Assembly (NCBI GenBank): GCA_021847925.1
Contig: JAJZNI010000112.1
Location: 1-37,649, forward strand
Direction: 5' to 3'
From: a bacterium
GTDB taxonomy: Bacteria; Chloroflexota; Dormibacteria; Aeolococcales; Aeolococcaceae
Length of the DNA: 37,649 nt
Made by a program: the position numbers and the translations under genes. Of the stretch, positions 14,261-36,870 are shown piece after piece (the stretch's first letter is position 1; the number at the start of each line of letters is the position of its first letter). The notes beneath the pieces are model-generated. The model was not told where the DNA came from, ran no database searches, and worked only from the letters and a program-made list of their open reading frames with translations.

Positions 14261-15553
14261 ATGGGCAGCTCGGAGACGGCCCTCACCCGCCCGCGAGCCG
14301 CCGCGGGACGGGGCTCGGGCACGGCATCGGGCGTCCGGCTCCGGCGGGTGGGGCGCCGGGCGGTCGAGGCCGCCCTGATGGGCGCCCTGCTTGCCCAGGC
14401 GGTCCGCGGCCCGTGGAGCCTCGCCTCCAACGGGGTGGCGCGCGGAGGGCTCTCCGACTGGATCGCCTTCGCCGCCGCCGCCCGGATGGTGTCCGGCCAT
14501 GCGGGGTCGGCCATGTATGGCTTCGCCGCCATCCATGCGGCGGAGCTGCGCTACCTGGGCCTCGCGTCGTCGCCCCTCACGATCCCGTTCCTGAACCCGC
14601 CGGCGGCCGCCGGCCTGGTCATCCCCATCGCCGCGCTCCCCCCGGCGGCGGGGATCACCGTCTTCACCGCCGCGGGCCTGCTGGCCCTGGTGGTCGCGTT
14701 TGCCCTGCTGCGCCAGCTCGGCTGTCCGAGCTTCCCCACCCTGCTCGCGCTCGGCTCCCTGCCCGCCGGTCTCGCCCTCGCCGTGGGGCAGTGGACGCCG
14801 CTCCTGGTCCTCGCGCTCGCCGCGGCGCTCCGCCTGCTGCGCCCCCGGCCCGTCGCCGCGGGCCTGCTCCTCGCCGGGCTGCTGATCAAGCCGCAGTACG
14901 CATGGCTCGTGCCGATCGCGCTGGTGGCGAGCCGGCGGTGGCGCGTCCTGGGCGGCTCCGTCGCAGGGGTCGCGCTCCTGGGAGCGCTGAGCCTGGCGGC
15001 GGCCGGCATCTCCGGCTGCGTCGCCTGGACGCACGCCGTCATCGACACCGGGAACCATGCGATCGGTGTCCTCATCGGCGTGTCGGGCCTCCTCGCGGAC
15101 CTCGGGCTCCCGTCGGTGGGAAACGCCGTCACCATCGGGGCGATCCCCGCCTGCGCCCTGGGCGCGTATCACTGGCGCGAGCGCCTCCGGGAGCAGCCGG
15201 AGCTGGCGGTCGCCGGTTCCGTGGGGCTGTCCCTGCTCTTCGCGCCCCACGTCCTGCGAGCCGACCTGCTCATGGCCGCCCCCGGGCTGGCGCTGGCCGC
15301 CCGCACCCGGCCGCGGGTCGCGGCACTCACCGCGGCGCTGCTCTCCGTCGCCTTCGTCAACGACTTCACGGACAGCGCGAGCGACATGCCCGCCGCCTTC
15401 GTGGTGCTGACGCTCGCCGCGAGCGTCCCACTCTGGGCCCTGCTGCGCCGGTCCCGCGAGGACGATCCCGTCGCGCCGAGCGCGGCGTCCGCGCTGGCGG
15501 CGACGATCAGGCGCGCGGGGGGGCGGCGAACCGGTGCGCGCTCCCATCCGTGA
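14261..15553 (+). CDS. GT87 (DUF2029) membrane glycosyltransferase
   Basis: 430 residues with ten or more hydrophobic segments. The GT87 pattern is present: an acidic first loop (LSDWIAFAAAARMV), NPPAAAGLVIPIAALP for the usual Y-x-Y-P-P region, GQWTPLLVLALAAAL, then AGLLLAGLLIKPQYAWLVP followed by RRWRVL, the Lys-Pro being the most conserved point. Family members in actinobacteria are polyprenyl-phosphate-mannose-dependent alpha-mannosyltransferases of lipoarabinomannan-type glycans. Acceptor unknown. The ATG at 14261 has only a weak GGCGGG upstream; an earlier start is possible. It ends by overlapping the convergent TIGR02206-type gene by 47 bases. Confidence 0.8.
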   Translation: MGSSETALTRPRAAAGRGSGTASGVRLRRVGRRAVEAALMGALLAQAVRGPWSLASNGVARGGLSDWIAFAAAARMVSGHAGSAMYGFAAIHAAELRYLGLASSPLTIPFLNPPAAAGLVIPIAALPPAAGITVFTAAGLLALVVAFALLRQLGCPSFPTLLALGSLPAGLALAVGQWTPLLVLALAAALRLLRPRPVAAGLLLAGLLIKPQYAWLVPIALVASRRWRVLGGSVAGVALLGALSLAAAGISGCVAWTHAVIDTGNHAIGVLIGVSGLLADLGLPSVGNAVTIGAIPACALGAYHWRERLREQPELAVAGSVGLSLLFAPHVLRADLLMAAPGLALAARTRPRVAALTAALLSVAFVNDFTDSASDMPAAFVVLTLAASVPLWALLRRSREDDPVAPSAASALAATIRRAGGRRTGARSHP

Positions 15554-18325: not shown

Positions 18326-19648
18326 TCACGAGACCGGTATGGCGTCGCCGCCGGCGAGCGCCGTGCTGTCACCGGCGCGATGTTCCGCGGACGCCGGTTG
18401 GCGCCGGGCGAGGGACCACGCCGCCGCTGCGACGGCGATGAGGACCCAGGGGACCAGCTGGACCGGACCTCCGTCGGCCGGGCTGAGGAAGACGGCGCAG
18501 GTCAGAAGGAACCACATCACGATCGCCGCGGTCGGGCCCTGCCAGCCGGAGAGGCTCCGCTGGGCAGCCCGCGTCGCGGCCTCCGCGGTCCACCAGACCA
18601 TGGCCGGGGCCAGAAGCACGAGGTCGTGGGTCCCCGCATGCGGGGAAGCCAGGATGGAGAGAGCCGCGCCACCGGCGAGAGCGGCACCGAGGCGCCCCGG
18701 CGCGCGGCGCACCAGAAGCCCGAGGCATAGCGCAACGCCCAGGGCGGTGACGTCGCCCACGGCGCCGATCACCTGGGTTGCACCGGAGTTGCCCAGGAAG
18801 GAACCGGGGATGCCGATGAAGCCGCTGAAGGTGTCGAGCTGCCACATGGTGTTGGTCGTGATGGCGTTCCTCACGAAGTTCAGCGGTGCCGCGGGTCCCG
18901 CCACCACGACACTGAGCACGAGCACTCCGATGCCGGCGATCACGGCGCCGGCCAGGACCCTCCGGCTGCGCCAGCCCAGCATGAGGGCGAAGATTCCGAG
19001 CGCCAGGTGCGGCTTGGCGACCCCCGCGCCGAGGACGATCCACACTGCGCCCCAGAACGGGCGATCGCGCCGCCACTCGCCATAGGCGGCCGCCAGTCCC
19101 AGGGCCAGGACACTGCCCCACTGGGCCTGCAGAAGGACGATCAGGGTGGCACCCCCGCCGAAGGCGATGAGCCCGACCCCGGAGCGCCACCAGGACGGCA
19201 GCCGCGCGGGCCACGGCGCGCTGCGGACGGCGATCACCACCGCGAGGGCGAGCATCGCAAGCTGGATCAGCCCCCAGATCCGATAGGCAATGTCGAGGCT
19301 CACCAGGGTGATGGGGGCGACCAGGGCCGCAGCCACCGGGGCATCGACGAACGGCAGGTTCCCCTCCCGATCGGGGGCGATCAGCGCGGCGTGGAGCGGC
19401 GCCTGCGCGCTCAGGTCGTAGAGCTCCGATCCATGCCCCTGGCGGAGGAGGAGCCCGCCGACGTAGGCGGAGGTGAAGTCGCTCCGTCCGATCTCCCACG
19501 GTGTGACCCTGACCCACAGCATCGCGTACACCGCCAGCAGGGCGACGGTCACGATCGCCCCGATGCCCACCGCCCTGTCCATCCGGCTCGCGCGTGCTCC
19601 CACGGGGCTAAGCCCCAGCCGGACGTCTGGCCTTCTCTCGGTAGTCAT
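18326..19648 (-). CDS. GT87 (DUF2029) membrane glycosyltransferase
   Basis: 440 residues, ten or more helices. The first loop GRSDFTSAYVGGLLLRQGHG carries the conserved Asp, followed by ELYD. The Pro-containing segment PFVDAPVAAALVAP, AQWGSVLALGLAAA and WIVLGAGVAKPHLALGIFAL with Lys-Pro match GT87. Such enzymes transfer mannose or arabinose-type sugars from polyprenyl phosphate on the outer membrane face. It is the last gene of the minus-strand block. Its ATG at 19648 follows GGAGGGGA almost directly and lies 41 bases inside the preceding gene. Confidence 0.82.
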   Translation of the reverse strand: MTTERRPDVRLGLSPVGARASRMDRAVGIGAIVTVALLAVYAMLWVRVTPWEIGRSDFTSAYVGGLLLRQGHGSELYDLSAQAPLHAALIAPDREGNLPFVDAPVAAALVAPITLVSLDIAYRIWGLIQLAMLALAVVIAVRSAPWPARLPSWWRSGVGLIAFGGGATLIVLLQAQWGSVLALGLAAAYGEWRRDRPFWGAVWIVLGAGVAKPHLALGIFALMLGWRSRRVLAGAVIAGIGVLVLSVVVAGPAAPLNFVRNAITTNTMWQLDTFSGFIGIPGSFLGNSGATQVIGAVGDVTALGVALCLGLLVRRAPGRLGAALAGGAALSILASPHAGTHDLVLLAPAMVWWTAEAATRAAQRSLSGWQGPTAAIVMWFLLTCAVFLSPADGGPVQLVPWVLIAVAAAAWSLARRQPASAEHRAGDSTALAGGDAIPVS

Positions 19649-23153: not shown

Positions 23154-24443
23154 CTACCAATGGAGACCGCCGAACGCGGGCACCACCACGCCCACCATCA
23201 GCGCGAGGTCGGCCACCCCCAGCAGCGTCGCGATCGTGGCGGTAGCGGCCGCAGCGTGCTCCCGCCACCCCGGCGTCGCCTCCAGTCCAAGCGCTCCCAC
23301 CACGGCGAGGGCTGGGAGGGCTGGGAGAAGGTACCGCCCCTGCGGCTGCGTGAAGGAGAGATTGATGACGAGCACCGCCGCCAGAGCGCCGGCGAACATC
23401 ACCAGGAGGACGGCGACGAGTCGAAGGTGTTCGGAACGCTGCCGCACCAGCCGCCAGACGCCGACCAGGGGCACGACCATGACGCCCCCGTACGCCGCAT
23501 AGACCCAGAGAGGGGCCCAGAACTCATCGTACCTACCGATCGCCAGGACGAAGGTTTCATACACCTCGGCTGGAAGCACCTGAACCATGTAGTTGGATAG
23601 GAGCGAGTGGTGGGCGACGAGATCCCCCACCGCTCCGTTCATGGCACCGGCACCGATGGGATCCCCGTAGTGCACCCACATGTAGAGGAACCACGGCAGC
23701 GCGATCAAGGGCGCAATCGCCAGCGAAGCCGCCCGCGCCGCGAGCGAGCGCAGCCGCCACCGCACGGCGGGCTCGGAGAGCACGAGGACGATCGCGCCGG
23801 CCAGCAGGAGGGCGCCGGTCACCTTGCTGAGGAGGGCCAGGCCGCCCACCAACGCCAGCGCGATCCCCTCACGCCATCGCCAGCCGCGGCGGACCAGACG
23901 CACCATGAGCCAGGTGCCGGCCGCACACAAGGTGGTGACCAGAGCGTCCGTGCTGAACATGGCGCCCCGGTATGTGAACTCGGGAAGGAACGCCACCAAC
24001 GCTCCAGCCAGAACGCCGGTGGAGCGGCGTCCTGTGGCCTCCACGCCCGCCAGGTAAGCGAAGAGCACGGTGAGGAGAGAGAGGATGCAGGTGGCCAGCC
24101 GAGCCTCGTGAAGAGCCAGGTACTTGGCGAGGTCGTTCACCGGGGCGATATCGGGGTAGGGCGGAACCGCCGGGGCGACCGCCAGGCTAGAGGAGTAGCT
24201 GGTGGCCGCGAACGGGCTCATCAAAATGTAGTAGAGGGGTGGCTCGTTGGCCTCCACGAAGTGCGAGTTGTAGGCGGGGAGGCTCCCGAAGGCATGCACA
24301 TAGGCGGCATACTGCCAATGGTTGTTCTCGTCAGGCGATCCCCAGGCGGGCACCACCAACGACCATGCCACAAGCAGGGTCCCAGCGGCGATCAGGAGCC
24401 AGACGACTGGCCGGCCGCCGCTGCGCCTCAGCTCACCGCTCAC
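23154..24443 (-). CDS. DUF2142/GT39-like membrane glycosyltransferase
   Basis: 429 residues, about eleven helices. After the first helix comes PAWGSPDENNHWQYA, whose Asp-Glu and His match the catalytic first loop of DUF2142 and GT39-type polyprenyl-phosphate-dependent transferases, then NEPPLYYILMSPF, the usual PPL-Y-Y segment. Near the C-terminus, QPQGRYLLPALPALAV is typical of the same proteins. The start GTG at 24443 lies 11 bases inside the end of the GT2/methyltransferase fusion, so the two are probably translationally coupled. That supports the fusion supplying donor sugar for this enzyme, which is inference. Confidence 0.8.
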   Translation of the reverse strand: MSGELRRSGGRPVVWLLIAAGTLLVAWSLVVPAWGSPDENNHWQYAAYVHAFGSLPAYNSHFVEANEPPLYYILMSPFAATSYSSSLAVAPAVPPYPDIAPVNDLAKYLALHEARLATCILSLLTVLFAYLAGVEATGRRSTGVLAGALVAFLPEFTYRGAMFSTDALVTTLCAAGTWLMVRLVRRGWRWREGIALALVGGLALLSKVTGALLLAGAIVLVLSEPAVRWRLRSLAARAASLAIAPLIALPWFLYMWVHYGDPIGAGAMNGAVGDLVAHHSLLSNYMVQVLPAEVYETFVLAIGRYDEFWAPLWVYAAYGGVMVVPLVGVWRLVRQRSEHLRLVAVLLVMFAGALAAVLVINLSFTQPQGRYLLPALPALAVVGALGLEATPGWREHAAAATATIATLLGVADLALMVGVVVPAFGGLHW

Positions 24444-25956
24444 GGCGGAAAGCGAGGATGATCTCCGCGCCGAGGATGCTTCTGCTCTCCTCCAACACGA
24501 AGCCACGCCGCCGCATCGTCTCGGACAGCTCTCGCTTCGTGTAGTGGGCTATGTGCTCGTCAGCGTACCCACCGGGCGCCACGCGAGCGTATATCGCCTC
24601 GAGGATGCACCACAGTCGGCTGTCGTAGTCAGGGGTGCCGAGCACCAGCCGTCCGCCCGGCAGCACAACTCGACACAGCTCGTCGAGCATCGGAGAGTCC
24701 TTGGGCACGTGCTCGATCACCTCGGAGGAGAGCACGCAGGGAAATGCTGCATCGGCATAGGGCAGCTTGAAGCCTGATGCGGTCGCCAGCGGGACCCCGA
24801 AACGGCGGGCGTGGCGCAGCTTTGCCAGCACGATGTCGACTGCCACGCTTCCGGGCGGCAGCGCGCCGATGATCCGACTTGAGCCGCAGCCAACGTCGAG
24901 GACCGCTCCGCGGTTGCGGATCAGCGACGTTATGTGCCGGTATCGCGTTCGCTGCCAGTAGCGCTGGAGCGGAACAACGCTGTCGTAGGCTCGATCATCG
25001 TAATCCGCCGAGCTGATGGAGTTGCGCAGCTTCCACAGGGACCAGAAGGTGCGCAGATAGGCGACCCCGAAGGCCCACACGTCCGCTCGGGAGCTGCCGT
25101 GCCGGCGCGGCGCATAGTGAAAGGGAACCTCGGCGATTCTCCATCCCTGGCAGTACGCCTTCACCAGCATCTCCTGAACCAGGTCGAAGTCACGCGCCCG
25201 CAACTCCAGCCGCTGGACCGCGTCCGCCCGCATCAGCCTGTAGCCACTGGACATATCGCGCACGGAGAGCCCGAGCCCGCGACGGAACACCCCATTGAGC
25301 CAGCGGCTGAGCAGCTTCCGGGTCAAGGGCATGGTGGCCTTGCCATCGCGGATGTATCGTGAGGCGATCACGAGCTCGGCTTCCTGCCGCTTCGCCCACA
25401 TCTCGGAAAGGAAGGTGGGACGGTGGGAGAGGTCGGCGTCCATGGTGACGATGAAGCTCGCCTCGGCAACCTCCATGCCCTGCCGCACCGCGTCCCCGTA
25501 ACCCCGGCCGCTCTGCACGACCACCTTCACCCGGGGACCATATGGGGCGGCCACCCGGACGGTGTCGGGGTCGGAAGGTCCGGTGACGATGACGACCTCG
25601 TGGGTGGCGTGAAGATCCTCCAGCACAGCGAGCAGCTCTGGGAGCAGGAGGGCGATGTTCTGCGCCTCGCGCAGGGCCGGTATGACCACGCAGAGGTCGA
25701 GGGGAGGGGTGCGACGCTGCTCCGGCGCGTCATCGGAGCCGGCTTCACCCCAGCGCGACGATTCCTCGGGGACCAGGACGGGAATGTCCTCCCGGATCGG
25801 GAAACGGTGGCCACAGCCACCCACGAGCCACGTGCCACCATCGAGGCTCAGCGGGATGTTTCCCGCTGGGCAGGTGGGGCAGAAGAGCCTTCCCCATCGG
25901 GTGAGGACGCCCGGTGCGATGGCATCCCCGCCATGGAGTGGGGCGCAAGCTTTCAT
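24433..25956 (-). CDS. Trm112-like / GT2 (polyprenyl-P-sugar synthase-like) / SAM methyltransferase fusion
   Basis: 507 residues, three modules. Residues 22-65 resemble a Trm112/YcaR-type zinc ribbon: CPTC (26-29), GCGHRFPI with Cys48, then DIPVLVPEE; the fourth zinc cysteine is absent (Val45). Residues 87-310 form a GT2 domain of the dolichyl-phosphate-mannose-synthase kind: VVIPALREAQN (90-100), the DxD as Asp173 and Asp175 in TMDADLSH, ASRYIRDG, DMSSGYRLM and EVPFHYAPRRHGSS. No membrane anchor follows. Residues 345-507 form a class I methyltransferase with VLDVGCGSS (352-360) and SSEVIEHVP. The ATG at 25956 was taken; a TTG at 25983 is in frame. First gene of the five-gene minus-strand block. 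Confidence 0.85.
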   Translation of the reverse strand: MKACAPLHGGDAIAPGVLTRWGRLFCPTCPAGNIPLSLDGGTWLVGGCGHRFPIREDIPVLVPEESSRWGEAGSDDAPEQRRTPPLDLCVVIPALREAQNIALLLPELLAVLEDLHATHEVVIVTGPSDPDTVRVAAPYGPRVKVVVQSGRGYGDAVRQGMEVAEASFIVTMDADLSHRPTFLSEMWAKRQEAELVIASRYIRDGKATMPLTRKLLSRWLNGVFRRGLGLSVRDMSSGYRLMRADAVQRLELRARDFDLVQEMLVKAYCQGWRIAEVPFHYAPRRHGSSRADVWAFGVAYLRTFWSLWKLRNSISSADYDDRAYDSVVPLQRYWQRTRYRHITSLIRNRGAVLDVGCGSSRIIGALPPGSVAVDIVLAKLRHARRFGVPLATASGFKLPYADAAFPCVLSSEVIEHVPKDSPMLDELCRVVLPGGRLVLGTPDYDSRLWCILEAIYARVAPGGYADEHIAHYTKRELSETMRRRGFVLEESRSILGAEIILAFRRER

Positions 25957-27901: not shown

Positions 27902-29455
27902 ATGGCCGAGGTCGACTTCGCCGACGGCTTCGACGTCAGCGAGCCGCTGCTCTGGGGGCTGGCGGCTCCGCAGGTGGGGACGCTCATCGCCGGGGCGGTG
28001 CTGGGCTACCTGGCGATCCGCTCGCCGCTCGCCCCGGTGGGGGCGATACCGCTCGCCGTGGTGGTGGCGGGCGCGGCCTGCGCCCTGGCCCTGGGCCGCT
28101 ACGAGGGGAGGACGCTCATCTCGTGGGCGGGCGCGGCTGTACGCTTCCGGGCCCGGCCCCGGCATGGCCTGCTGCTGGTGACGGGCGGTGCAGGCGGCGA
28201 AGCTTCGGACCAATGGGCCGCGCACTCCTCGCACCCCGCTCCGCCCCTCGCTGTGGTCAGAGCCGGCGTCGACGGCCATGCGGGCCCACCGCCCGCGCAC
28301 GTCCAGGGACGCGGTCTCCCCGGTGCGGCAGCCGGGGAGCGCGATGCCGCACCTCTGGAGACACCACGGCGCGTTCCCCTGGTCCTCCTCCCCGAGCCGG
28401 TCTCCTCACCCGAGGCCGATGACGGCCCGCCGGGACGTGAGCAGCAACCCCCCATCGGCCCACCGCCGGACCTGGGCGTGGCGGAGGGAGCGGTTCTGGA
28501 GGCGCGCGCGGCGGCGCGGATTCGCGACCCCGGTGGCGGCGGACCGCTCGACCTGTGGGCCGCGGCCCCGACCACCCTGCGCGCCACCCGGCGCATCACC
28601 TTCTTCTCCCTCGCGGGCGGCACCGGGCGCACCACCCTGGCGGTGGAGGTCGCCGGCCTTCTCGCCAGCCGCGCGGCGGCCCCGTGGCCCGCTCCGGGGG
28701 TGGCGCTGCTCGACCTCGACCTGCTCAGCCCGCGGGCCAGCATCCGCCTGGGGGTGCCCCTGCTCACCGGCTGGGCGGAGGCGGTCTCCGAGCTGCCCAT
28801 GCGGGGAGGGCTGGAACGCCTGCTGAGCGTCCTCCCCAGCGGCCTGCGCGTGGTGCCCGGCCCGGCGCCGGTCCCCCTGCCGCGCTGGGACGGTGGGCCC
28901 CTCCCGCTGAGCCCGGCCGCGGCGTGGGACGCCACCGTGGGCGGCGCGCTTCCCGACGGCGGCTGGCAGCCGGACCGCAGCCTTCTCCCCCGGCTGAGCT
29001 GCCTGGTGACCGAGATGGAGCGGCAGGGCTGCGACACCCTGATCCTCGACGTCCCCGCCGGCCTGGGCCCGGTGACGCGCTGGGCCCTGGACGCGGCGCA
29101 CGACATCGTGGTCGTGCTCACCCCCACGGCCGGGGGCGTGCAGGACGCCTACCGCAGCACCGAGGCGCTGCGCCGCCTGGGCCTCGCCCGCAAGCTCCGC
29201 TACGCGGTCAACCGCAGCTGCGGGGACCACCCCTTCGCCGAGGCCATGGGCGACCTCGGCGGCAGCATCGCCGCGGAGGTCCCCGAGGATCCGGCATTGG
29301 AGCGCGCCGAGGCGGAGCACCGCCTGGTCGCCGCCGCCGGCTCGGGCGCCGCCGCCCGCGCCCTCCGCGCCCTTGCCGCCACCGTCGACGCGCGCCTCGC
29401 CACCCCCCGCAACCGCCGGTCCGCCCACCGCCTCCTCGGCCGGCGCGCCGTCTGA
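27902..29455 (+). CDS. PrgI-like membrane domain fused to ParA/CpaE-type ATPase with degenerate P-loop
   Basis: 517 residues in three parts. Residues 10-88 resemble PrgI, the VirB3-like inner-membrane subunit of Gram-positive-type type IV secretion: SEPLLWGLAAPQVGTLIAG, a second helix, then RYEGRTLISWAGAAVRF. Residues 95-225 are a Pro/Gly-rich linker. Residues 230-500 form a MinD/ParA/CpaE-type domain with a P-loop reading AGGTGRTT (238-245), so both conserved lysines are replaced (Ala238, Arg243). Further signatures are ALLDLDLLSP (Asp271, Asp273), LILDVPAGLG (Asp383) and VVVLTPTAGGVQDAY. Start supported by AGGAGG nine bases upstream of the ATG. A VirB4-like gene follows. The PrgI part is the less certain call. 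Confidence 0.72.
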   Translation: MAEVDFADGFDVSEPLLWGLAAPQVGTLIAGAVLGYLAIRSPLAPVGAIPLAVVVAGAACALALGRYEGRTLISWAGAAVRFRARPRHGLLLVTGGAGGEASDQWAAHSSHPAPPLAVVRAGVDGHAGPPPAHVQGRGLPGAAAGERDAAPLETPRRVPLVLLPEPVSSPEADDGPPGREQQPPIGPPPDLGVAEGAVLEARAAARIRDPGGGGPLDLWAAAPTTLRATRRITFFSLAGGTGRTTLAVEVAGLLASRAAAPWPAPGVALLDLDLLSPRASIRLGVPLLTGWAEAVSELPMRGGLERLLSVLPSGLRVVPGPAPVPLPRWDGGPLPLSPAAAWDATVGGALPDGGWQPDRSLLPRLSCLVTEMERQGCDTLILDVPAGLGPVTRWALDAAHDIVVVLTPTAGGVQDAYRSTEALRRLGLARKLRYAVNRSCGDHPFAEAMGDLGGSIAAEVPEDPALERAEAEHRLVAAAGSGAAARALRALAATVDARLATPRNRRSAHRLLGRRAV

Positions 29456-29537
29456 CGGCTCGATTGCACGCCACGGCCCAGGGAGGGGTGGCAGCGTTGC
29501 GAAACGAGCTTTGCGCAGCCAGGAGGGCCTTCGCCCA

Positions 29538-31718
29538 ATGAGGCGCCGTCCCGCGCAGAGCCCCGGCGCCCTCCGCGTCGACGGCTCCCACATCCTCACC
29601 CCCGACGGCCTCCGCGCCGGCGTCCTGCTCTGCGACGAGGTGGACCTCCTGGCGATGGAACCCTGGCGGCGCGAGGCGGCCACCTCAGCCCTGGAGGCGC
29701 TGCTGCGCAGCCTCGCCGCCGAGCTGGTGCTGGCGGTGCACGTGCGCCGCGCCCATCCCAGCCCCGATCCCCACATGGCGACTCCCGCCGGCCACCTGAC
29801 AGCGGCCCTCGAGCGGCACTGGCGGCAGCGCCTCGAGACCGCGCCCGCCTTCCACCGCACGGTGACCGCGGCCATCAGGCACCCTGACCCCACCACCCTG
29901 GAGCGGGAGCTGGCTGCGGTCTCCGACGCCCTCACCGCCTCCGGCATCCCGCTGCAGCGGCTCGACGGCGCCGCCCTTGGAGCCCACCTCGACCGGGCGG
30001 GCCTGGAGCTTCGCCGCATGGCCTGGGTGGAGGGGGCGCGCCAGGCGTGGCTGGGGGAGCGGATGGCCCGGGCCGCGGTGCTCGACCGGCTCCCGGGAGG
30101 GCGGGTCGACGCCGGGTGGCTGGCGGCGCTGCTCCGCGTTCCCGCGGAGGCGGACATCGCGGTCCACCTCTCGCCCACCCCGGTGCAGGTGGCCAACCGG
30201 CTGCTCGGCCGGCGCCTGCGCCATCTCAGCGCCCACCGGCTCATGGAGGGGGAGCGGGGGCTGGTTCCCGACGCCGGTGTGGAGACCGGGCTGGAGGCGG
30301 CGGCGCGGCTGCGCGACCGCCTGGCCCGCAACACTGGGCGGCCGCTCCGCCTCTGGCTGACGGCGGTGGCGCTGGGGCAGGACCGGGAGGCGCTGGAGCT
30401 CGCCTGGGGACGGCTGCACGGGGCCTTCGGGGCCACCTCGGCCCGCCCCCGCAGCGGGCACTTCGAGCACCTCGCGGCCGCGCTCTCGACGTGGGGTCTG
30501 GGCCCGCCGCCGGGACCCGGGAAGCTGGTGGACTCGCATGCCGCGGCGAGCTGCGCGCCATGGCTGCAGACCCGCATCGACGACCCCGGCGGCTACCGCA
30601 TCGGCCGGATGGTGGACGGCGGGCTCCCGGTGGCGATCGCCCCCTTCGCGGAGGAGCATCACGCCAACGCCAACATCGGGATCTTCGCCGCCTCCGGGCA
30701 GGGCAAGAGCTTCCTGATCGGCGGGCTGCTGATCGAGGCGCGCCGCCTCGGCGCCGAGGCCATCGTGGTGGATCCGGAGGGCGAATACCGCCCCCTGGTG
30801 GAACGTCTCGGGGGCGCCTGGCTGGACCTGGTCAGCGAGGCGGCCATCAACCCCTTCGACCTGGGGTCGGACGCGGAGGGCGCGTGCGCCGCGGTCGCGG
30901 ACGTCTGCGCCCTGCTCTGCCCGGGGATCACCGAGGAGGAGCGGGCGGCGGTGGAGGCGGCGGCCAGGGCGGCCCAGGAGGCGGCGCGCGCCGCCGGGGG
31001 CCCGCCGCGGCTGCGCGGGTGCCTGGACCCGCTGCTGCGCGAGGCGCCCCGGGTGGCACGCGTGCTCGGCCGCTTCCTCGACGGGCCCCTCGCCGGCTTC
31101 CTCGACCGCCCCACGTCGGCCGCGTGGTCGCTGCCGCTGCTCGCGGTCGGGCATCGCGAGGTGCGCGAGGAGCTGGTCCCGGTCACCACCCTCCTGCTCG
31201 GCCGGATGCTCTGGGACCTGGTGCGGCGCGTCCCCCGCCGCCGCCACATCGTGCTCGACGAGGTGGGGATGCTCAGCGCCCACCCGGCGCTGCGCGACCT
31301 CCTCGCCCAGCTCGCCCGGCGCAGCCGCAAGTACGGCTCCTCGCTCGTCGTGGCGACGCAGAACGTCGGTGACCTGCTCCGCACCGAGGAGGGCACGGTG
31401 GTGGCGAGCAACTGCGCCGTGGTGCTGTGCGGCGGCCACCGGGCGGTGGAGGTGGCCGCGATGGAGCGCGCGTTCGGCCTCACGGCGGAGCAGCGGCGCC
31501 GTCTGGAGAGTGCCCCGCGCGGCGAGTTCCTGCTCGTCGCGGGCAGCCGGCGGGGGATGGTCCGGGTCGACCTTCCCCACGCCTACGGCGAGATCATCGC
31601 GGGTGGCCCGTCCCGCGCCGGGACGCCCCCGGGGGGGCTGCCGGGCGCGGGCGGGGACGTCAGCCGGACCGGGGACGTCGCGGGGGGGAGGCGGCGCCCG
31701 GGTGCGGGTAGCGGGTGA
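29538..31718 (+). CDS. VirB4/TraC-like type IV secretion ATPase
   Basis: 726 residues, in the VirB4 size range. The N-terminal 350 residues are a poorly conserved VirB4-type domain. The ATPase part has Walker A ASGQGKS (385-391, Lys390), the VirB4 hallmark VVDPEGEYRPLVERLGG, Walker B IVLDEVG with Asp574-Glu575, and the ATQNVGDLL segment. Such hexameric ATPases energise pilus assembly or DNA transport. AGGAGG (29521-29526) lies 11 bases before the ATG, and 82 bases separate it from the PrgI/ParA fusion, a PrgI-VirB4 order seen in conjugation loci. No VirD4, relaxase, VirB6 or pilin gene lies nearby. Its 3' end overlaps the convergent dehydrogenase by 59 bases. Confidence 0.83.
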   Translation: MRRRPAQSPGALRVDGSHILTPDGLRAGVLLCDEVDLLAMEPWRREAATSALEALLRSLAAELVLAVHVRRAHPSPDPHMATPAGHLTAALERHWRQRLETAPAFHRTVTAAIRHPDPTTLERELAAVSDALTASGIPLQRLDGAALGAHLDRAGLELRRMAWVEGARQAWLGERMARAAVLDRLPGGRVDAGWLAALLRVPAEADIAVHLSPTPVQVANRLLGRRLRHLSAHRLMEGERGLVPDAGVETGLEAAARLRDRLARNTGRPLRLWLTAVALGQDREALELAWGRLHGAFGATSARPRSGHFEHLAAALSTWGLGPPPGPGKLVDSHAAASCAPWLQTRIDDPGGYRIGRMVDGGLPVAIAPFAEEHHANANIGIFAASGQGKSFLIGGLLIEARRLGAEAIVVDPEGEYRPLVERLGGAWLDLVSEAAINPFDLGSDAEGACAAVADVCALLCPGITEEERAAVEAAARAAQEAARAAGGPPRLRGCLDPLLREAPRVARVLGRFLDGPLAGFLDRPTSAAWSLPLLAVGHREVREELVPVTTLLLGRMLWDLVRRVPRRRHIVLDEVGMLSAHPALRDLLAQLARRSRKYGSSLVVATQNVGDLLRTEEGTVVASNCAVVLCGGHRAVEVAAMERAFGLTAEQRRRLESAPRGEFLLVAGSRRGMVRVDLPHAYGEIIAGGPSRAGTPPGGLPGAGGDVSRTGDVAGGRRRPGAGSG

Positions 31719-33793: not shown

Positions 33794-33865
33794 TCCCCGC
33801 GGGCCGCGAACGGATGTACGATACAGGGGTGCCGGCGGGCGCGCGACGGGGGGGCCGCGGACCCC

Positions 33866-33894
33866 TTGACACCGGGTGGGCATCGACCCAAGAT
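33866..33894 (+). promoter_or_regulatory. nrdJ promoter
   Basis: TTGACA (33866-33871), a 17-base spacer and CAAGAT (33889-33894) form a sigma-70-type promoter. Transcription would start near 33901, giving a leader of about 150 bases before the GTG at 34051. The -10 lies inside the first NrdR box. Confidence 0.7.
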
Positions 33895-33901
33895 ATGGGG
33901 G
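33886..33901 (+). promoter_or_regulatory. NrdR box 1
   Basis: ACCCAAGATATGGGGG matches the invariant positions of the 16-base NrdR consensus acaCwAtATaTwGtgt (C4, A6, A8, T9, T11, G13). It covers the -10 of nrdJ, as expected for repression by NrdR with bound dATP/ATP. Confidence 0.75.
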
Positions 33902-33917
33902 CTCCAGGGCGGTCGGA

Positions 33918-33933
33918 CCCCAACATGTGGGAT
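33918..33933 (+). promoter_or_regulatory. NrdR box 2
   Basis: CCCCAACATGTGGGAT keeps the same six invariant positions around an ACATGT core. Its centre is 32 bases from that of box 1, about three helical turns, which is the usual spacing of paired NrdR sites. Confidence 0.75.
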
Positions 33934-34050
33934 ACTGTGGGGGACAGAGTAGCTCGGTGTGACCGGGTCCGCCCGCCGGGAGCCGTCCTCCGCGGGACGT
34001 GGGATCTCCGTAGAGTCGCGCCAGACACCTCAGCAGAGAGGACTTCAGAA

Positions 34051-36869
<2,819 letters not shown>

Positions 36870-36870
<1 letters not shown>

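Follow-up and report, generated by a model that had tools for sequence, protein, structure and literature searches.

The 37,649-nucleotide window analysed here, contig C63 (JAJZNI010000112.1) of the metagenome-assembled genome (MAG) G000, carries a two-gene pair (27902-31718, forward strand) that encodes a PrgI-ParA fusion protein and a VirB4 ATPase. With a probability of roughly 60%, we read the pair as one half of a domesticated type IV secretion system (T4SS) translocase that is divided between two chromosomal loci and is core to the class Dormibacteria, and that most likely transports single-stranded DNA (ssDNA) for recombination, probably inward. PrgI-ParA, VirB4, VirB2 and VirB6 are near-universal in the class and follow the host family relationships. 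An earlier note, made from the DNA of the window alone, had guessed at a reduced, possibly domesticated transport device, and the comparison of 61 Dormibacteria genomes, which fall into families designated f1 to f4 with numbered genera (g1 and so on), supports that guess. The host MAG is 2.44 Mb and 87% complete, and Dormiibacterota is an uncultured group of soil bacteria.

A PrgI-ParA fusion paired with a VirB4 ATPase

The first gene (27902-29455, forward strand), directly preceded by a Shine-Dalgarno-like GAGGAGGAG, encodes a protein of 517 amino acids. Residues 13-88 (27938-28165) form a PrgI/VirB3-like domain of two membrane helices and one more helix, modeled by AlphaFold2 as a helical hairpin (residues 22-39 and 45-64) followed by a helix at residues 72-84. 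The isolated N-terminal domain scores 27.8 bits with Pfam PrgI (PF12666) against a curated cut-off of 27 (E=3.8e-6), the full-length fusion protein falls under the cut-off (E=1.1e-4), and 18 of 20 relatives match PF12666 at E<=0.1, so the likeness of the N-terminal residues to PrgI, on which the earlier note had staked its reading, holds. A Pro-rich linker, residues 90-225 (28169-28576), connects this domain to the ATPase; it is disordered in the model (pLDDT <50), contains 23 prolines in 136 residues (17%) and varies in length among aligned relatives. The C-terminal domain, residues 230-495 (28589-29386), is a MinD/ParA ATPase of the CpaE/TadZ-like type, with a TIGR01969 match at E=2e-13, a confident MinD/ParA fold in the AlphaFold2 model, and PDB fold matches to 1hyq (E=2.5e-13), FleN and Soj. 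The P-loop, GGTGRTT at 28616, has Arg at the position normally taken by Lys, and this GGxGR form is kept in nearly all relatives in the alignment.

The second gene (29538-31718, forward strand) starts with ATG at 29538, head to tail with the first and 82 bp from it. The protein matches NCBIfam VirB4 models with E from 1e-22 to 3e-26, among them conju_CD1110 (3e-26) and VirB4_CagE (1.6e-22), and possesses both a Walker A motif (ASGQGKS, residue 385, at 30690) and a Walker B motif (IVLDE, residue 571, at 31248). Both genes are thus real at the coordinates first given for them, with the domains, order and spacing that had been described.

Partner genes and class-wide inheritance

Does the pair stand alone, as was supposed? 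Within the window no other secretion gene was found, but genome-wide the claim fails, because VirB2-like and VirB6-like genes lie at C81:31532-32653 of the same MAG, on another contig, together with a gene for the ssDNA-binding protein SSB, and such partners occur throughout the class. All four parts (PrgI, VirB4, VirB2, VirB6) adjoin one another in f2: after PrgI or PrgI-ParA and VirB4 come a 198-aa gene, Dtd, a two-helix protein of 79 aa and a TrbL_4 protein of 300 aa. Searches with the last two of these identified a VirB6-like gene in 56/61 class genomes, G000 included, and an adjoining VirB2-like gene is likewise present in 56/61, again with G000. Pfam TrbL_4 is matched by 15 of 16 VirB6 candidates. 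The G000 protein (C81:31532-32362) is one TrbL_4-matching, VirB6-like channel protein; comparison of the VirB6 AlphaFold2 model with 350,542 PDB chains placed R388 TrwI/VirB6 in all five top positions, with a probability of 0.99-1.00, but with E values of 0.1-0.24. Half of the VirB2 candidates (8/16) match T4SS_pilin, weakly (best 7e-5; the G000 copy 0.025).

The order VirB2-VirB6-M23 peptidase-SSB is found in f3, f4 and part of f1. A scan of named genomes with the VirB2 alignment produced 80 loci, mostly from MAGs labelled Candidatus Dormiibacterota or Chloroflexi, the rest mainly from bacterium MAGs and one titled Actinobacteria; a scan of genome contigs with the single VirB4 protein produced no relatives. 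Of the 75 named loci in which VirB6 was called, 43 have the M23 gene directly after it, 45 have an SSB no more than two genes away and 34 show the full order; 4-bp gene overlaps are frequent. In the G000 operon SSB is present and M23 does not adjoin. Since most genomes encode a housekeeping SSB elsewhere, the operon SSB is a dedicated copy.

A conserved 5' leader, GGCCGGAGGGGCGRCCG...GGAGGTCGCC, stands ahead of VirB2 in f1 loci (L078:10655-10790 and others) and matched no Rfam family. In f3 a small membrane protein of unknown family is encoded 5' of VirB2 (L091:9065-9427).

The VirB4 query finds 56/61 class genomes at E<=1e-4 and 53/61 at E<=1e-39, with identities of about 72% in the nearest genus, about 45% in f1, 32-40% in f2 and 34-39% in f3 and f4. 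Three genomes (G007, G013, G018) have only weak, paralogue-like matches, and the absence from G060 is explained by a contig that ends directly after CpaB. Genomes that lack VirB4 tend also to lack the VirB6 set (Fisher p=6e-4), and a contig end accounts for one discordant genome. Strong VirB6 matches across the phylum are confined to the class Dormibacteria, and in the VirB6 tree f2, f3 and f4 each form one group, f1 being split by a g1/g13 branch. Gene calls on 40 neighbourhoods of the pair gave recurrent chromosomal neighbours among the relatives, such as NrdJ, FolB and Dtd. A search of 72,556 plasmids with VirB4 gave a best identity of 33% and no match covering 80% of the protein, and the VirB2-like pilin is encoded on no viral contig searched; confinement of the pair to complete conjugative elements, the earlier note's own counter-case, was accordingly not observed, there being no close relative on any plasmid or viral contig searched.

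VirD4, the third component that the earlier note had proposed to look for after VirB6 and a pilin, is absent from G000 and from 6/6 f3 genomes. It is not part of the conserved set: in f2, VirD4 lies near a second, fuller T4SS (L069, L072; G042, G035), which has pilin-like, PrgI, VirB4 and M23 genes of its own.

Tad-pilus context and a shared putative operator

In genera g9 and g12 and in family f3, PrgI-ParA heads a Tad-pilus operon that closes with VirB4. The gene order in G011 (f1) and G058 (f3) is PrgI-ParA, CpaF, TadB, TadC, TadE-like, CpaB, VirB4; it is similar in G008, but there the first gene was called for its ParA part only. CpaF, TadB and TadC are not in the window and are in the same operon in these three genomes. 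This context makes the ParA half CpaE/TadZ-like, as had been suggested from the window. Operon-specific CpaF is limited to the same two genera and f3 (8/61 genomes), and in most genomes no Tad genes separate the two members of the pair. The VirB2-VirB6-SSB genes of G000 are convergent with a separate, adjoining Tad-like operon, so that the two halves are linked to Tad in two ways.

The VirB2-VirB6(-M23-SSB) operon in f1 and f3 shares a putative operator, TACACA-N4-TGTGTA, with comM-dprA, tlyA-nadK-recN (NadK being assigned on its sequence rather than by a model) and dnaE2. In VirB2-operon promoters it sits between the -35 and -10 elements. At one mismatch or fewer there are 0-4 sites per genome, most of them at the VirB2 operon, comM-dprA, tlyA-nadK-recN, dnaE2 plus imuB-like genes, and a gene for a NucT-like lipoprotein PLD nuclease. 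At three mismatches or fewer, the operator precedes VirB2 in 11/12 f1 and 4/4 f3 genomes. It is also found 5' of comM in 6/6 f3 and in five f1 genomes, 5' of tlyA-nadK-recN in three and 5' of dnaE2 in one. Outside the discovery genomes, 13 more comM promoters had a gene call, and 7 of these have a site with three mismatches or fewer (shuffle p<=0.025). A small membrane protein gene in G011 (L197:2820-3209), similar in appearance to the one 5' of VirB2 in f3, is under the same operator.

Control of the VirB2 operon by LexA and the SOS response was considered and rejected: most lexA promoters examined have GAAC-N4-GTTY-like boxes of the ordinary SOS type, none has the operator at two mismatches or fewer, and the operator is therefore not that of LexA. 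The NrdR box, whose half-sites are similar but differently spaced, was also rejected as the identity of the operator.

Proposed function, rival readings and known relatives

How might such a split system work? From the parts and their linkage we infer, with good support, assembly into one machine. PrgI (VirB3) would anchor the VirB4 ATPase in the membrane, and the fused ParA/CpaE domain may position the complex or couple it to the Tad pilus. VirB6 would be the channel through the membrane, with VirB2 as pilin or pseudopilin, the two together forming the path, and in most lineages the M23 endopeptidase would open the cell wall. The dedicated SSB would coat ssDNA, which SSB, DprA and ComM would then handle, and the VirB2-VirB6 operon would be switched together with comM-dprA, tlyA-nadK-recN and dnaE2. 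The machine would thereby carry ssDNA through the cell envelope for use in recombination, probably inward. Import is favoured since ssDNA entering the cell is what SSB, DprA and ComM act on. It is favoured also by precedent, in the ComB system of Helicobacter pylori (PMC13395361) and the archaeal Ced/Ted systems (PMC9905601). A more specific version, which we consider rather unlikely as it stands, is that the class imports ssDNA directly through VirB6/VirB4 without ComEC, by a domesticated conjugation translocase that is positioned by PrgI-ParA, partnered with Tad and placed in a non-SOS recombination regulon, as a bacterial counterpart of Ced/Ted. ComEC is absent from G000, from 7/7 g13 genomes and from 18/18 f2 genomes, while most of the remaining genomes of f1, f3 and f4 have it; G000 has ComM with an adjoining DprA-like gene.

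Several points weigh against a translocase for ssDNA uptake. All the genomes are MAGs and the evidence is purely computational; the PrgI matches and the VirB2 pilin matches are weak when taken singly. The genome-wide excess of the operator at one mismatch or fewer is modest (26 sites in total against 15 for a reversed-pattern control), the operator precedes VirB2 in no f2 or f4 genome, and ahead of PrgI-ParA-VirB4 it was not found, except weakly in G011. In G000 itself it is degenerate, with three mismatches at VirB2 (p=0.02) and four at comM (p=0.11). No relaxase was noticed beside the operons, no genome-wide relaxase search having been made. Family f2 retains the set although it lacks ComEC, and a search of four of its genomes for ComM found none (0/4); in that family the set therefore cannot serve classic ComEC-dependent transformation.

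That same retention in f2 fits a different use of the same split T4SS, as an exporter of proteins or ssDNA to neighbouring cells, in competition or in feeding on other cells, the latter as proposed for Patescibacteria, with the operator belonging to a general stress response. Patescibacteria have chromosomal, mostly relaxase-free T4SSs with VirB2-, VirB3/PrgI-, VirB4- and VirB6-like parts, essential for epibiotic growth in the single case tested there (PMC12102498). We nevertheless consider export unlikely, given that a dedicated SSB in the operon and an operator common to comM-dprA point to incoming ssDNA, and that no effector gene was seen beside either operon (PrgI-ParA-VirB4 or VirB2-VirB6). 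Could PrgI-ParA and VirB4 instead be Tad-pilus accessories, ParA as CpaE/TadZ and VirB4 as an extra motor, with VirB2 and VirB6 belonging elsewhere? The Tad genes between them in G011 and G058, the similar order in G008 and the Tad-like operon beside the G000 partner genes would agree with this, but the scarcity of operon-specific CpaF, the pairs without intervening Tad genes in most genomes, and the direct association of PrgI and VirB4 with VirB2-VirB6 in f2 make it quite unlikely. Joint use of a Tad pilus and a T4SS is compatible with the ssDNA translocase. That the set is an ordinary leftover or portion of an integrated conjugative element is highly improbable: although every part is of the conjugation type and a second, fuller T4SS with VirD4 nearby exists in f2, a remnant is ruled out by the class-wide vertical distribution, and the family-wise VirB6 tree, intact Walker motifs, recurrent chromosomal neighbours and lack of close plasmid or viral relatives also speak against it.

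A literature search, outside which lay most subscription papers and all preprints, returned no description of this system in Dormiibacterota. It is reminiscent of Ced/Ted, which has domesticated chromosomal VirB2/VirB4/VirB6 homologues in distal loci, no known relaxase, linkage to recombination genes and, in the Ted loci, a MinD/ParA ATPase as well (PMC9905601). Unlike Ced/Ted, the Dormibacteria set is bacterial and has PrgI/VirB3 fused to ParA, an SSB and an M23 peptidase, and import would be its probable direction. ComB is similarly a T4SS co-opted on the chromosome for DNA, without VirD4 (PMC13395361, PMC7366825), but it is diderm and has many more VirB parts, including the VirB11 ATPase, whereas the Dormibacteria set is minimal and of monoderm type, and several of its lineages lack ComEC. 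The Patescibacteria T4SS is likewise chromosomal and widespread; Dormibacteria genomes are larger, and the available part of that account does not describe a PrgI-ParA fusion, SSB or shared operator (PMC12102498). Until recently, Patescibacteria were the only known source of VirB2-type pilins in systems of the Gram-positive type (PMC12857230). The Tad/Flp pilus (CpaE/TadZ, CpaF, TadB/C) has the ParA domain in common, with the full neighbouring gene set in a few lineages, but here CpaE is fused to a PrgI domain and partnered with VirB4. Flp pili are required for transformation in M. luteus (PMC6370729). Conjugation machinery domesticated for DNA transfer has been documented for archaea, by Ced/Ted, and for a single bacterial case, the ComB system of H. 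pylori; an example that spans a whole class of soil bacteria and is passed on vertically would demonstrate that such domestication recurs. If ssDNA import is correct, it would provide a gene-exchange mechanism for lineages without ComEC, and would make it testable whether a VirB4/VirB6 translocase runs inward on its own.

The chromosomal surroundings of the pair in the window are as previously noted, with a GT87 enzyme upstream and metabolic genes downstream, the latter being a hydroxyisobutyrate-dehydrogenase-like gene, an SGNH hydrolase and the class II ribonucleotide reductase NrdJ (33814-36870). Two genes stand between VirB4 and NrdJ here, and NrdJ is a recurrent 3' neighbour of VirB4 in f1 (16 loci). 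Further membrane glycosyltransferases are encoded 5' of the pair, comprising two more GT87 proteins, a PMT_2 protein and a GT2-methyltransferase fusion (14348-15550, 18329-19582, 23157-24443 and 24436-25689).

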